This document shows, in pieces, positions 24,924 to 55,078 of a DNA stretch of 64,000 bases. The position numbers and the translations under genes are program-made. Source of the DNA: Terana coerulea (taxonomy: Eukaryota; Basidiomycota; Agaricomycetes; Polyporales; Phanerochaetaceae); assembly GCA_024811115.1 (NCBI GenBank), contig JAKOGH010000845.1, positions 1-64,000 on the forward strand. Reading direction: 5' to 3'. Positions within the stretch are counted from its first letter, which is position 1; each line of letters starts with the position of its first letter. The notes beneath the pieces were generated by a model. The model ran no database searches. It was given only the letters and a program-made list of their open reading frames with translations, and had not been told where the DNA came from.

Positions 24924-25351
24924 CTTGATTGCTCCAGTTCAAGTCGCGCTTGAAGTTGCTTGAGAACATTGTGAGTGGCCACAGGCCACTCACGTACTTT
25001 GCGGCAATCAAACTTCTCTGTATCAAGATCAGTTCCATTATGCATGTTACATTGCAGCAGCAAGAGCAAAATGTTGACTGACAGAAGACTGCTCACTAGA
25101 ATGCCAAATACTTGTGTATTCAGCAGACACATTGTACTCACCATAGACTGGTATTGGGCTCATCACTGAGCTGTGAACAGAATAGAATAACACAAGCCAT
25201 TCAATCTCTCTCCAATCCTTGAGAATGACAGCAAGAACACAGCAATTCCAGAAGCTCAGTTTATATCTCAAATTCTTTTGCCCAGTGTGAGGATGCGCCA
25301 AATGGCACATCCGCAAACACAGAGTAAAAGAAGTAAGAGAGACAAAAATCC

Positions 25352-25539
25352 CCCGACGACACAAGCCGGTACTGCAGTGGCAAGGTCATCACGTCGCCCA
25401 AGTTGCAAGCAGAGCTCGGGGACAAGGGCGGCAAAAATTAGATAACCAAGAATGGAGGCGGTGCCTCCATAATAGTGGTTAAACTATTAAGAACAGATAC
25501 TACACTTGATCTAAGCCAAAAGGCCAGAGTGGTAAGGAT
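25352..25539 (-). ncRNA. U2: U2 spliceosomal snRNA
   Basis: The minus strand carries the conserved U2 5' half: CTCTGGCCTTTTGGCTTAGA, then TCAAGTGTAGTATCTGTTC. GTAGTA (complement at 25498-25503) is the element that pairs with the intron branch site. A stem-loop IIa/b region follows (TGGAGGCACCGCCTCCA), then an Sm site AATTTTTG (25432-25439) and a 3' stem whose loop contains ACTGCAGTACCGG, like the U2B''/U2A' binding loop. The 5' end is placed from the TATA box 25 bases upstream and from length; the ends are accurate to a few bases. It is the only RNA gene I can support. Confidence 0.93.
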
Positions 25540-48648: not shown

Positions 48649-50117
48649 TCAACGCTTCGCATTCACTTCCCGCAGCGCTCGTCGGAACAGCTCGTCTTGT
48701 ACATCTCCTAAGACATCTGCGTTGCCCGGAAGGTGTCAGTAAAGGATGCATGCGCAAGTTGGAGAAGTAAAATACGCACATCGAGCAAGTTTTGGGTCCC
48801 TCTTCGACGTGAAATGCAAGTAAACTCGTCTTTGGGAGGGCCGGCTGCCACTACGACTTGCCGCAGTAAAACAATTGCGGATGTAACACTTTGCCGACTC
48901 GTATTCTGCCCCACCTTGATATCCAGGGAAATAATCGCCCAGCGGTGAGACAGATAACTTCTCCGCAAGTCCTTCAGTACCAGTCAAAAATACCATCTGA
49001 GCAACAGCCGTCAGCACAATATTTCTTAGCACAGTTGATATGCCTCACGAGAGCGGTGTCTTCAAGCCACGGCGAAATGCATAGAGTGTGAAAGACGGAC
49101 AGTGCATGTTGCAGACAATTCTGGGACAGATGCTCTTAGGAGGGACGTTGAAGCGCCGTAATGCAAAAGGTTCCACTCACCACATCTTTGCTGTCCATCT
49201 GATCATATTCGCACAAAGAGACGAAGAAGACAAGGGCAACAGCTCCTTCGAAGTGGTGCATCCACTTCTCGCTCGACTCCGGTGTCTGCGGCTGTGTATC
49301 AATGTCGAAGAACTTGAGACGTGGATGCCACTCCCGGCCGCTTGGAAAGGTACTAGCGAGTCCATGATGTCAACAACTGGCGTTTTGGAAAGCCAAATCT
49401 CGTCCTCAGTTGGTGCGTAGTCGGGCGCGAAGATGCTGTGGATTCTGCTGAGATACCATCTGGCTTTGTCCTCTAGGTGGCATTCCTCCATGAGAACAGC
49501 TGTTTCTCGTACGCCAGGGTCATCCCAAAGAGCATGAATGGCGTGACGGATATCCCAGGGCAAGGGGTCATTCTGGATCGACGCCGGAAGATCCATGATG
49601 ATGGCACGATGGGCATAATTTTGCGGCAACGGCTCAATGCCCAGCTCGGTCATGGCCTCCAGAACGGCCCTGCCGTGCGAGTAAGTCTCGTAGATAGCCA
49701 GCAACGACGACGTGCTCACTGTACAATCAGGATGGCATTTGTGAATATTACCGCCTTGTCGGAGATAGGTCCAGGCAAATTCCGGACGGAGAAAAAACTC
49801 GTTGGGCGTGATCCTCAGCTGATTGAGCAATGTCAACTGTAGTTGTGCGTGCGAAGTCAGCTCACAGTGGGGCTCTGATAAAAGTGTGGTAAACACCTTG
49901 TTGTAAGACTCACCGACCTCGCATAGTAGAACTTGGGATCCGTGCCTGTTCACGGCACTTCGAGTGGCGCCTTTAGGTCCTAAACCTACATATTCTTTAG
50001 GCACATTCGCACAGTTCAAGATCGATTGAGCAAGTTTATGGTATCGAGAGTGAACGACGTACTGGTTATTAGCTTCAAGTTGGCACGTTGTCGCGGTCTA
50101 GATATGCCGCTACCCAT
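48649..50117 (-). CDS. degenerate G-alpha-like protein 1
   Basis: Heterotrimeric G-protein alpha fold without a usable nucleotide site. The N-terminus MGSGISR keeps the myristoylation pattern. The P-loop position reads LLCEVGESYNK instead of GxGESGKST. The helical domain is recognisable: YLSRIHSIFAPDYAPTEDEI. The switch II position reads FFDIDTQPQTPESSEKW, so the GGQ glutamine is not in place, followed by the conserved WMHHFEGAVALVFFVSLCEY. The NKxD position reads FLTGTEGL. Then LGDYFPGYQGG, YLHFTSKRDP, ending FRRALREVNAKR. It lacks the residues used for GTP binding and hydrolysis. One G-run break (49333-49335). Confidence 0.75.
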
Positions 50118-50410
50118 CGCGCAGTTTCTCAGCAGCCTGACTGGGCGACTCGGAGCTCCGAATGCAATGGTGAGCAGAGCAATTGTCCGGGTGAGCTGTG
50201 CGTAAGTTGCTCGAGTGGAGTAACCGTGACTGGCAGAAATTATGATCACGGTTTGTCAACGCTGCATGTGAACAGTAGACGGAACATGAATCAGCTCGTG
50301 AGAGTGACATACTTGATTAACACTGAGACTGATTTCAGAATACCCCGTGCGCAGTGCCGCCTGATGGGTACTAGTACCGCCAGATGAAATTTGAGCGCAC
50401 GGCATACTAT

Positions 50411-51848
50411 TCACAAGGAGAAATGTTCATAATAGTCCTTCTTCCTGAGATGTAACTGCAACAGGATATCCTGCAAGCCGCTTAGAACGACTGATAAACG
50501 TAGTTGTCAGTGCAGAGATGGAATACTCGACGCTATACACTCACATTTAAATTGCTCCGTATCGTTCACATGGGTGTAATGCGCATATATTTGCTTTGTT
50601 GCGGCGTTCTGATTCAATGATACAAAGCGATCGAGAATATACGAACAAGCGGCATCGTAGTTATGTCCGCCGTGGTAGTCTGGAAAATAGTCAATTAACG
50701 GTATTCGGGAAAGCTTCTCGCTGAACTCGTCAGTATCTTCCAATAGGAGAATCTAAAAAATAAAATAAAAATAAAATGAGCCGCTGGGTAACAGTATCAC
50801 TGATAAATTTGATCGCACCATTGAAGTTTTTATGAACCACCTGGAGTTACAGACTGAGTCGAAATCGGTCAACGCATGGTGCATGAAGGTCTGTGTTCTT
50901 CATTATACCATAGTTGAAATATGGGCTAATGTTGGATTACGCGTACCGTATTAGAATCCTTGTCTATGCGGTCATAGTGACTCAAGCTTGCAATGTACAC
51001 AATCGCGGCCATGTCTTCGAAGAAAGGCAGTACCTTCTTGCGGGACTCCGACCTCCAGCGGATGTTAAAGAACCTGTAGGTCAGCTCTCCTATGGTATGC
51101 ACAACCTCCCTCGGACTTGTGTCGCATGCATACGCTTGTCGAATGTCCGCGTCGGAGGGTATGTAACCGGGCACAGTTATGCGTGACACTGCGTGGTAGA
51201 AATATAATGTGGTGGCATCCAGTTGCAGCTCCTCAGAGCGACCGATAACTTCTCGAACACCGGGATCATCGTGAAGTCGGTGAAGCGCATCCACGATGTC
51301 GGGTGGAAAGGACGCATAGTATGTTCCTGCCGCCGCATCGAGAATCACAGGCCAAAGAGCAGCATTTTCTGGCGACAGCCGGATAGCGAGGCGATGCATG
51401 GCTTCAAAAATCTTTCTAAAATGCAAACATGAGCAAGGATACTGCCGTAGAGGAATCGAGAGACAAACCGCATAGACCGAAGCACGCCATTGTTGACGAC
51501 ACGTTTGGCGGATGTTCTTTCGCTATCGCTGTAGGGCCCAGACATGCGTCTCATTTGCGACATGAACGCCGCCTGGATTGTGACCAGTAAGCAATAGCAG
51601 GGCTGCACACGCAACAGTGTCGCTTGCACCTTTCTCGTGGGGGAGCATACGAGTCGCACACTAGGATGTCGATCTGGTTTTGCGGGCCAGTCTGTCGCGT
51701 TGCAGCTGTAGATCAATCTCGTCACTACCTGATATGATCATGCAAAGGATCAGAATCGCCGTATATTCGTCGAACAAAGCTACATACGTTGTTTCGCTCT
51801 AAGCGCAGCAGCCCTCCGCTTGGCAGCCTTCGACGATACGCAGCCCAT
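50411..51848 (-). CDS. degenerate G-alpha-like protein 2
   Basis: N-terminus MGCVSSKAAKRRAAALRAKQR (myristoylation plus possible palmitoylation cysteine), then EIDLQLQRDRLARK as in G-alpha N-terminal helices. The P-loop region reads VRLVCSPTRKVQAT. Helical domain: TLYFYHAVSRITVPGYIPSD. Switch II region: FFNIRWRSESRKKVLPFFED, then MAAIVYIASLSHYDR. NKxD position: LLLEDTDEFSEKL, keeping only the Asp. Then PLIDYFPDYHGG, ATKQIYAHYTHVNDTEQF, LSGLQDILLQLHLR. A frame change or missing intron near 51670 is unresolved, so the P-loop region is uncertain. Head-to-tail with its neighbours. Confidence 0.7.
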
Positions 51849-52821
51849 GTCACCAGCGAGGAGACCTAATGCCTACGCACTTGATAGTGGGTACGAGGAA
51901 GCTGCAAGCAGAACACGCACTGAGATTGACAGAGTGGGGATGGGTAGGTATGGGTACACGCTCACCAGAACGGCATCGCGACGGCGTCAAGGGCACAGCC
52001 CTGAAGATGCGAGCGATTGAGTTTTCACCGTCGTTCAAAACAAGGCCTCCGCAACATCTACACAAGCGACGTCTCCGCCGTCAATGTTGATTGTGAATGG
52101 TATGCCCGTTGACGAGGCTGTCGCTATCCTGCGACTCGGACCGTCCTGTGGAAGGCTATGGTTCAGCGCTCAACGACAGGCATCCGATCTGAAGTAGCGA
52201 GCGGACTTCAGTAAAGCAACACGATACCACAGACTTGTCTGCATGGAAGGCAAGACCACTCTCCTGGGCATGTTCGGTTGAGTGGTGGTCGTCGTCGACA
52301 CAAGCGCAACAATTTGATGGCGGCCTGCTCCCGCCCGAACTGCGCGCTTATTTAGGTGGCGCGTGGCACATTGAAATTAGCGTCTCAAACCTGCCTCAAA
52401 CGCCACAAAGCTTCCGCTCAAAAAATAATTGGTTCATCCACCATAATGTCACTATACTCTCTCCGGCCCTCAGTATGATACATATACTAGTTAAGACACC
52501 AACAAATCACAAATACCGAAACTAACGCTGCGCTCGCGACGCGCACAAAAGAACGTCGATTTCCTCATAGGGATACTAAATACTGGAGTGAATGTTCTAT
52601 CAAGCTCCAGTGGACAGCACTCCGGCCTCGCTCTCTCAATCGTCATACCATCGTGGTGAGGAGCGTCGACATGACCAAGAGTTGCGCCAGATCATAGCAA
52701 GCAAGTGTGATGACCGCGGTGCTTCGGCGCCGCAACGACCACCGCAACAGGCGGCCGTGGAAGGGTTCACCATTCAACACCGCAGCGACCGCGGCTAGCA
52801 GCTTCGACGCGTGGTCTTCAG
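51849..52821. other. spacer between G-alpha-like copies 2 and 3
   Basis: About 970 bases with no supported gene. It should hold the promoter of copy 2. Confidence 0.4.
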
Positions 52822-54248
52822 TTATTGCTTCCCGCGCATCTCGTGCGCAATCTTTACGTCGTCTATCTGACTCAAGACCACTGTCCTCGCACGTAATCAG
52901 CCAGCAACAGACTTGTGAAAGCGCGGCCGACCTACTGCGGGCGTGAATATAGCTATTGGCGGTAGTCATGAAGTGCACATAGACTCCCCGATACTTTCCC
53001 CGGGGAAGCAGGCTCTGGAACAGGGAGAGCATATATTTGCACGCAGCGTCGGAGTTGTCGGCGCCGGCGTAGTCCGGGAAGTAGTCTCTCAGTGGCTTCC
53101 GAGTAAGCTTCTCCTGGAACTTGTCGAGGTCGTAAAATAGCAGACTCTAAGAAAAGAGAGCCTGAGAAGAGGAAGACAGTTGTCATGGGAATGCGACGCA
53201 CTATGGAAGTATTTCGGAGCCAGTTTGAGTGGCTCAGTTCGCGGAAAGTCGACACTGTTGATTGCATGTATCTTGCCTGTTATGGGAATATCAAGTTAGG
53301 TTCGGGGAAGGGGCTCAAGAAAGGCAAGACGCGCCTCTGGGTCAGCATGTGCATCGTCGTATTCACTCAAGCACACCATGAAGACGAGCAGAGTACAATG
53401 TTCGAACTGGTGCAACCACTTCCTGTATGAACCGGTCCACGGAACGACGAAGAACCTGCAGGTCCGGCGGTGCACTGAGACAGTCAACGCCATCGTCTTG
53501 TCTGTCACGATAGGCGATGCTCGAGTGCTGTCCTCTGCGACTTGTAGCTGCCGGATGTCCTCATCTGTGGCGACATAATATGGGGAGGACACGCGGTCGA
53601 TGGCGGTGCAGAAATGGACCACGAAATGGGGTATGAGAAGCTCTTCGGCGCGGGTAAAAGCCTCCTGTACGCCAGGATCCCGCTGAAGGCCGAGCAGAGC
53701 TTCGCCCACGTCATTCGCCAGGGTGTTATACCGTGCAGGGGACGGTATGCTCATAACGACAACTTTGAAAGCTTCGTGTTTTCAGGGTCTAGTGGAATAC
53801 GGAAGCGAGACATGGCCTCCAGAACGTCGCTAAGCAGGAGATTAGGTACTGACGGTAGCTTCGGCGACAACGATCGTACCGCATACTTCGAATGGCAACG
53901 GAGAATATGAGCTGATGTGGCGTGCGTTTAGTACGAATGAGTCCATTGTCCTCGTCCTCGATGCGGCTCAGATGCTGGAGAAGTGCTGTCTGTGGAAATT
54001 GGTGAGAGGCGACGTTTTGACCACCAAAAGGACGGAATGCGCACCTTTCCAGTACAGTGACGGGAGTCATATAGCAGTGCATCAGCCTGACTCGCCCTGT
54101 CGTGCCTGTATCGTGCGAGCAGCTCGTCGATTTCATAGCTGCCTTTATTGATAATAGATGTGGTCGTAATCAAACTGTTTGGAAGACAGTAAGGGGACTC
54201 ACGCCTTTGAGCTTCACTGACTGTCCTAAATGACTGGATGAAGCCCAT
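52822..54248 (-). CDS. degenerate G-alpha-like protein 3
   Basis: N-terminus MGFIQSFRTVSEAQRR; then GSYEIDELLARYRHDRASQ and a P-loop remnant LLYDSRHCTGKV. Helical domain: HFCTAIDRVSSPYYVATDED. Switch II position: FFVVPWTGSYRKWLHQFE, then VFMVCLSEYDD. Next FRELSHSNWLRNTSIV, with NKxD replaced by LLFYDLDKFQEKL. Then PLRDYFPDYAGADN, GVYVHFMTT. The 3' end is uncertain: a last exon ending AHEMRGKQ at 52822 fits the family. The three copies differ from one another at nearly every nucleotide-contact position. Confidence 0.65.
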
Positions 54249-54498: not shown

Positions 54499-55078
54499 GG
54501 AGGCACCAGGGGGGGGCAGTATCGCTAGCGCTGAAATCACCTTGTCTAGTGGTGGTGACCCCCTCCTCGGGGTCCCGCCGCAGAGACGCTCACCACATTT
54601 GGTAAGATGCTGATTGCCGTCAATGTCACTTGCACTGGCAGACGAGATTACAGCCTGCTTGTCCATTGCTCTCAATGCCACCCCATTACACACCCGCCGA
54701 TCACAAGATATGGCCATTGCTGCATAAGGCTCGATAAAAGAGCAATTTTCTTGTGCTCGCAGGCCCTTACATCGACCAGTTGGAAGTCCAGCACAGGCGG
54801 CCGTTTGGCCGAGCCCCCGTTGAAGTACATACACTAAGCCTTCCGAGGACGAAACTAGGGTTATCAACATTGACATAGCTCTAAGAGATTTCAGGGGTTT
54901 TCGCAAATATGTAGCTCACAGCGTCGCACCAACCTGCACAGGTACCGGTAAGTCACTGTAAGTAGTCATCTCGTTGTTACCTTGCAACTGGGGTCTTGCC
55001 TAATATTGAGCGTCTGATCTGCTGGCGCTTCGACAAGGTGATTTCAGCGCTAGCGATACTGCCCCCCCTGGGAGGCAC
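54499..55078. mobile_element. non-autonomous hAT-type transposon (MITE)
   Basis: A 564-base element (54507-55070) has terminal inverted repeats of about 39-40 bases. The left end is CAGGGGGGGGCAGTATCGCT... and the right end is the reverse complement of the same sequence; they differ only by G8 versus G7. It is flanked by the exact 8-base direct repeat GGAGGCAC (54499-54506 and 55071-55078). An 8-base target duplication and termini starting CAGGG are the signature of the hAT superfamily. No transposase frame lies inside, so it would depend on an enzyme elsewhere. A small inner hairpin (GACCCC/GGGGTC, 54557-54574) is present. Confidence 0.85.

Follow-up and report, generated by a model that had tools for sequence, protein, structure and literature searches.

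The 64,000-nucleotide stretch of Terana coerulea DNA analysed here (contig JAKOGH010000845.1, positions 1 to 64,000; the window) carries three genes that resemble guanine nucleotide-binding protein alpha subunits (G-alphas) and lie head-to-tail on the minus strand: gene A (50117-48649), gene B (51848-50411), and gene C (54248-52822). A three-gene array had been proposed in the original prediction, and the ends of its span correspond to the end of the A stop codon (48649) and to the C start codon, ATG (54248). We located the genes with our own splice-aware profile aligner, which found the G-alpha genes of the genome (48.4 Mb in 896 contigs, with the array on contig C658) and the three window genes, the latter with scores of 480 (A), 741 (B), and 454 (C). 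Hand placement was used for exons 1 and 2 of A (A introns 1 and 2) and for the P-loop exon of B.

All three genes are degenerate G-alpha paralogues with seven exons on the minus strand. Gene A comprises 50117-50063, 49994-49897, 49836-49720, 49669-49181, 49120-49049, 48996-48780, and 48716-48649; gene B, modelled with a shifted intron 1 acceptor, 51848-51788, 51724-51630, 51572-51469, 51415-50947, 50890-50819, 50752-50545, and 50490-50411; and gene C 54248-54203, 54142-54045, 53989-53880, 53829-53335, 53276-53202, 53146-52936, and 52880-52822. Each has six introns, whose positions match those of L009, the canonical GPA1-type gene on contig C674, to about one residue, and exons 1 to 6 measure 55/98/117/489/72/217 nt in A, 61/99/104/469/72/208 nt in B (with the ancestral acceptor), 46/98/110/495/75/211 nt in C, and 46/95/107/472/72/208 nt in L009. 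Seventeen of the 18 introns have GT-AG ends, including all six of B. Just upstream of gene C, positions 54510-55068 hold a perfect 37-bp inverted repeat pair around 485 bp, resembling a miniature inverted-repeat transposable element, and a 20-nt inverted match (90%, possibly by chance) connects 48895-48914 in exon 6 of A with 51637-51656 in exon 2 of B.

The products are recognizable as G-alphas. All pass the curated cut-off of Pfam PF00503 (48.8 bits), with 210 bits for B, 130 for C, and 55 and 109 for A, which matches in two pieces, and among solved structures B comes closest to G-alpha-i-type chains (179 bits). The scaffold motifs that had been noted from the sequence were located on the minus strand as APDY in A (49428-49417), VPGY in B (51174-51163), and SPYY in C (53586-53575). 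The expected Met-Gly start was also found in every copy, as MGxxxS (MGSGIS in A, MGCVSS in B, and MGFIQS in C), which is a predicted N-myristoylation signal; Gly2 and Ser6 are common to the three, and Cys3 occurs in B only.

All five G motifs are altered in A, B, and C relative to canonical GPA1-type proteins. No copy has an intact P-loop (GxGESGKS), switch II DVGGQ, or NKxD, and every copy has changes in G1, G3, and G4. At the P-loop position, GAGESGK is replaced by EVGESYNK in A (49897..49920), by VCSPTRK in B (51630..51650; hand-placed, 3' of the exon 2 break), and by SRHCTGK in C (54045..54065), which keeps GK; these and the following positions are on the minus strand. In switch II, DVGGQ has become DIDTQ in A (49292..49306), NIRWR in B (51052..51066), and VVPWT, with a Trp common to B, in C (53434..53448). 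For NKID, A has TGTE (48973..48984), B has EDTD in otherwise conserved surroundings (50729..50740), and C has YDLD, with the Lys-to-Asp change common to B (53123..53134). In switch I, which aligns loosely, R179 is K, Y, and Q and T182 is V, D, and E in A, B, and C, respectively; the TCAT loop reads TSKR, THVN, and TTAN; and the C-terminal ECGLL is replaced by EVNAKR, KKDYYEHFSL, and GKQ. Restoration of canonical motifs by polished sequence seems unlikely, because switch II and NKxD already lie in the ancestral frame with their replaced residues.

The claim that the three motifs are replaced differently in each copy stood for the replacement itself but only partly for the difference, since several replacements are common to B and C. 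These are G204W, K271D, T328N, T50A, and G184S (the last depending on the alignment), and for G204W both genes have TGG, which takes two base substitutions to reach from the canonical codon. Among doubly changed pocket sites, the same new residue occurs at 5/19 for B and C, 1/16 for A and B, and 0/14 for A and C, and the sharing between B and C is above random identity (p=0.0045). These common replacements suggest a pocketless protein under selection.

We compared the pocket with the rest of the protein at sites invariant in the canonical set (n=222), treating sites as independent in the tests. All three copies keep 34 of the 222 sites, among which T325 is the sole pocket residue if the B P-loop is counted as a gap; K48 is added when it is read in by hand. 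B keeps 4/27 pocket sites and 110/190 others (p=2e-5) with the hand-read P-loop included, and 3/20 and 110/181 (p=9e-5) without the P-loop; pooled over A, B, and C, the counts are 20/83 and 261/564 (p=1e-4). The pocket of B is also worse kept than its invariant flanks within six residues (3/20 versus 28/46, p=0.001). In residues 264-355 of B, 46/54 non-pocket sites are kept and 2/7 pocket sites (p=0.0035), so that the changes of NKID to EDTD and of TCAT to THVN sit inside a conserved stretch. The best-kept regions of B are alpha3 (14/16 invariant sites), alpha4 (21/22), and beta6-alpha5 (18/27). Of nine switch II and alpha2 residues that we take to face G-beta in Gi, F200, K211, F216, and E217 are present in all three copies, and W212 and H214 are present in A and C but not in B. 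The sets of residues that are kept thus differ (G-beta-facing versus alpha3, alpha4, and beta6-alpha5), and A, B, and C may have had different partners.

The copies are not simply decayed, and their scaffold has been under long purifying selection, because near-saturation at third codon positions goes with conservation at positions 1 and 2, neutrality is rejected, and stops are absent from the aligned codons. At codon positions 1, 2, and 3, the identities between the copies are 0.49-0.53, 0.58-0.61, and 0.33-0.35, in a codon alignment made on amino acids that somewhat favours positions 1 and 2; chance identity at position 3 is about 0.26, and third-position identity to L009 is 0.34-0.37. In a four-sequence codon model, neutral A, B, and C cost about 61 units of log likelihood (lnL). 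Taken one terminal branch at a time, A, B, and C each reject neutrality (twice the lnL difference, 2dlnL, of 10.8, 13.9, and 8.2), and joint neutrality of B and C is rejected over the whole length (2dlnL 78) and in residues 177-246 (11.2). Within residues 177-246, where several branch lengths are at their bound, C alone gives a 2dlnL of 4.7, and neutrality is not rejected for A (1.3) or B (1.5) taken singly. When L009 was decayed neutrally in simulation, finder scores were 32-67 at nucleotide identities of 0.29-0.47 (16/16 runs) and 99-217 at 0.57-0.61 (8/8), and they rose to 484-642 only at 0.75-0.77 (8/8). At the amino-acid level, A, B, and C are 37-50% identical to L009. The alignments of the three copies have no in-frame stop in 965 codons, with a finder stop penalty close to its frameshift penalty, which limits any neutral period to less than 0.029 substitutions per site (95%).

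We interpret A, B, and C, with confidence that only slightly exceeds even, as lineage-restricted, nucleotide-independent pseudo-G-alphas under birth and death, of which B is perhaps alive and A and C probably recently dead. They would have arisen as tandem paralogues of a canonical GPA1-type (Gi-like) gene, lineage-restricted as far as searchable, and after duplication their proteins would have evolved much faster than that of the parent gene, losing most of the nucleotide pocket. Purifying selection held for most of their history, and the pocket would already have been missing during most of this constrained period, for which B provides the best support. The working form was likely a nucleotide-independent pseudo-G-alpha attached to the membrane via its MGxxxS start; its Ras-like scaffold and alpha4-beta6-alpha5 face are best kept in B. 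Such a protein may compete with canonical G-alpha for G-beta-gamma, receptors, or effectors; B is possibly still a protein, and A and C are probably recent losses. A more specific version is put forward tentatively, at rather below even confidence: tandem membrane-tethered G-alphas that would be unable to bind guanine nucleotide, would have been maintained until their synonymous sites were near-saturated, and would act independently of nucleotide to antagonize or scaffold G-beta-gamma or receptors, as a fungal counterpart of the plant XLGs.

Several results weigh against this interpretation, and some of them favour instead that the genes are plain pseudogenes, that is, three dead GPA1 duplicates whose pocket loss reflects general decay after an earlier functional life. 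Every copy departs at least once from the ancestral frame, which the original prediction had only hinted at (breaks in exons 3 and 4 of A, in exon 2 and at the C-terminus of B, and in exon 4 of C), and under ancestral splicing A and C as they stand run into stops. The shifted acceptor of B scrambles part of the N-terminal helix. Intron 4 of C is GC-AG, with a GC donor. The finder called four breaks in the 965 codons of A, B, and C, and a fifth, in exon 3 of A, was identified by hand outside the aligned codons; ten other G-alpha genes of the assembly have three called breaks in 3433 codons, of which two fall in a hypervariable loop. The excess in the array has P=0.011 for four breaks and P=0.002 for five. 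In those other genes a mammalian profile called more breaks, most of which an own-clade profile removed.

The pocket itself is also less telling in two of the copies. The rest of the domain has changed about as much as the pocket in A and C, which keep 9/28 pocket versus 77/185 other sites (A, p=0.41) and 7/28 versus 74/189 (C, p=0.21), and their pockets are not worse kept than flanks within six residues (9/28 versus 16/52; 7/28 versus 15/51). The proposal of a pseudo-GTPase family was borne out in part: for purifying selection on the scaffold, for loss of the nucleotide pocket, which is specific in B, and for the MGxxxS start. Pocket-specific loss in A and C is not significant. The sharing of new pocket residues by B and C (5/19) does not exceed what the two genes show at other invariant sites (11/60; p=0.26), and outside the pocket the pairs that include A likewise have new residues in common, so the sharing points to common descent more than to anything special about the pocket. 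The P-loop lysine K48 is present in all three copies, with the P-loop of B read in by hand. Estimates of the ratio of nonsynonymous to synonymous substitution rates (dN/dS, omega) are about 0.1 for the copies but rough, since branches and dS are saturated; together with the rejection of neutrality, they do not fit a dN/dS near 1 over the whole length, the outcome that had been named as speaking against function. Diversifying selection, the other option raised originally, is unsupported, with dN/dS estimated at about 0.1 and dS saturation precluding a test for positive selection.

That the searches described below yielded no similar copy and no degenerate orthologue counts against a living family and in favour of plain pseudogenes. 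Placement of the copies in the GPA1 clade is no more than suggestive: B and C group within it with support of 98/91, but long branches meet there, and the best two codon-model topologies are 0.7 lnL apart, with the third about 5 worse. The protein-database searches rely on shared 5-letter words, which diverged relatives may escape. With this method, B had 298 matches, with no degenerate orthologue among the matches listed (120, at 44-47% identity); A had two matches among 1635 candidates, neither a degenerate orthologue; and C had none among 2544 candidates. The L009 protein is 81-93.5% identical to the 120 matches listed for it, the closest named being from Hermanssonia and Phanerochaete. G1, DVGGQ, NKxD, and TCAT are all present in 119 of 121 listed proteins, and the remaining two miss one motif each (P0020 DVGGQ and P0098 NKxD). 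No further array copies were found elsewhere in the genome among the best candidates, which were the ones scored. A possible gene conversion of the 3' half of B by L009 was considered and rejected: over codons 265-334 amino-acid identity is 0.69, and third-position identity is only 0.30.

Against the pseudogene explanation stand the rejection of neutrality for each copy and the finder scores, which are 32-67 after simulated neutral decay to saturated identity versus 454-741 observed. With no stops in the alignments and GT-AG or GC-AG ends in 18/18 introns, death, if real, would be very recent. A mix of five frameshifts and zero stops under neutral decay has a joint probability of at most 0.01-0.11 across the indel rates tried, which is awkward for neutral decay. 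We regard plain pseudogenes as possible but on the doubtful side.

The breaks could alternatively be assembly errors, or be bypassed by altered splicing, in a pseudo-G-alpha family that is still living, for which the poor fit of frameshifts without stops to neutral decay also speaks. B has a 362-aa open frame as it stands if intron 1 uses a second acceptor 4 nt downstream; its C-terminus is shifted, placing the ancestral GLL-stop in another frame. In A, introns 2 and 3 could be retained in frame, and removal of a 41-nt GT-AG stretch would skip the exon 4 break; this length is, however, below that of the shortest modelled intron (43 nt) in the genome's G-alpha gene models. C needs an ad hoc splice, and assembly errors would need to be concentrated in the array genes. 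Contigs C674/C262, C659/C142, C577/C157, and C673/C183 form pairs that are 98-99% identical in the compared stretches and are probably two nuclear haplotypes of a dikaryon; no partner was found for the array contig over 48600-54300. Three of the four pairs have no gap in G-alpha coding exons, and the fourth (L020/L017) has a single 2-nt gap that falls in modelled exon sequence, in a hypervariable loop. The breaks are probably real, because they cluster in the array genes and the duplicate contigs are mostly gap-free in coding exons. The present-day family of three proteins that had been envisaged is not supported, since A and C do not read through as they stand, and a wholly living family appears improbable. 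B is perhaps alive as a protein, and A and C are probably recently dead, their frame breaks lying on a background without stops.

That the genes encode unusual G proteins still binding nucleotide in a rebuilt pocket, as the retained P-loop lysines, the TGK of C, and the GES..K of A could suggest, is very improbable, given that each copy has changes in NKxD, GGQ, TCAT, and the switch I Arg and Thr at once and that the P-loop Lys codon lies directly at a splice donor, a position that may itself hold the Lys in place.

Elsewhere in the genome, ten further G-alphas (L011, L012, L014, L015, L016, L018, L019, L020, L021, and L022) form a GQSESGKST-type clade in which GKST and NKxD are present. The catalytic switch II Gln is absent in 10/10, its place after DVGG being taken by S, A, N, or H, and L022 having DVEGC, which suggests an expanded set of slow-hydrolysing G-alphas. 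For comparison, PMC9030616 describes four classical G-alphas in Flammulina and three in most filamentous fungi studied. A link of the array to a mating-type receptor was rejected: STE3 matches lie on contigs C529, C530, C577, C526, and C231, and none on C658. The window also contains a U2 spliceosomal RNA gene (25347-25535, minus strand).

The closest known system is the canonical, Gi-like GPA1 of Agaricomycetes, also named 'G protein alpha subunit B' and represented here by L009, with which the array has PF00503, the intron layout, and MGxxxS in common. The usefulness of a G-alpha without GTP is known mainly from plants, whose XLGs carry a large N-terminal extension. The array differs in this respect: B has 362 aa versus the canonical 354-355 and is thus without a large extension, and all three copies are as long as ordinary G-alphas and begin with a myristoylation-type start. 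By description the two are otherwise alike in being derived from G-alpha with a possible nucleotide-independent role, XLGs being atypical G-alphas that, according to PMC8584482, interact with G-beta-gamma and RGS independently of nucleotide. The same paper describes Dictyostelium and Naegleria G-alphas with deviating catalytic motifs (PMC8584482), which by description resemble the array in that pocket motifs deviate within a G-alpha scaffold. The septin Spn7 and other class I pseudoGTPases, from a different GTPase family, likewise keep the scaffold and have many pocket substitutions, thought to be incompatible with nucleotide (PMC10731463). No pocketless fungal G-alpha appeared among the papers listed by literature searches that were only partly fungus-directed and covered subscription journals thinly.

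If our interpretation of A, B, and C as pseudo-G-alphas is true, the fungal array, with a canonical parent in the same genome and a conserved alpha4-alpha5 face in B, would be an independent case, open to tests in yeast, of a switch protein turning into a fixed binding partner. The array also seems to catch such a family while its copies are being lost.

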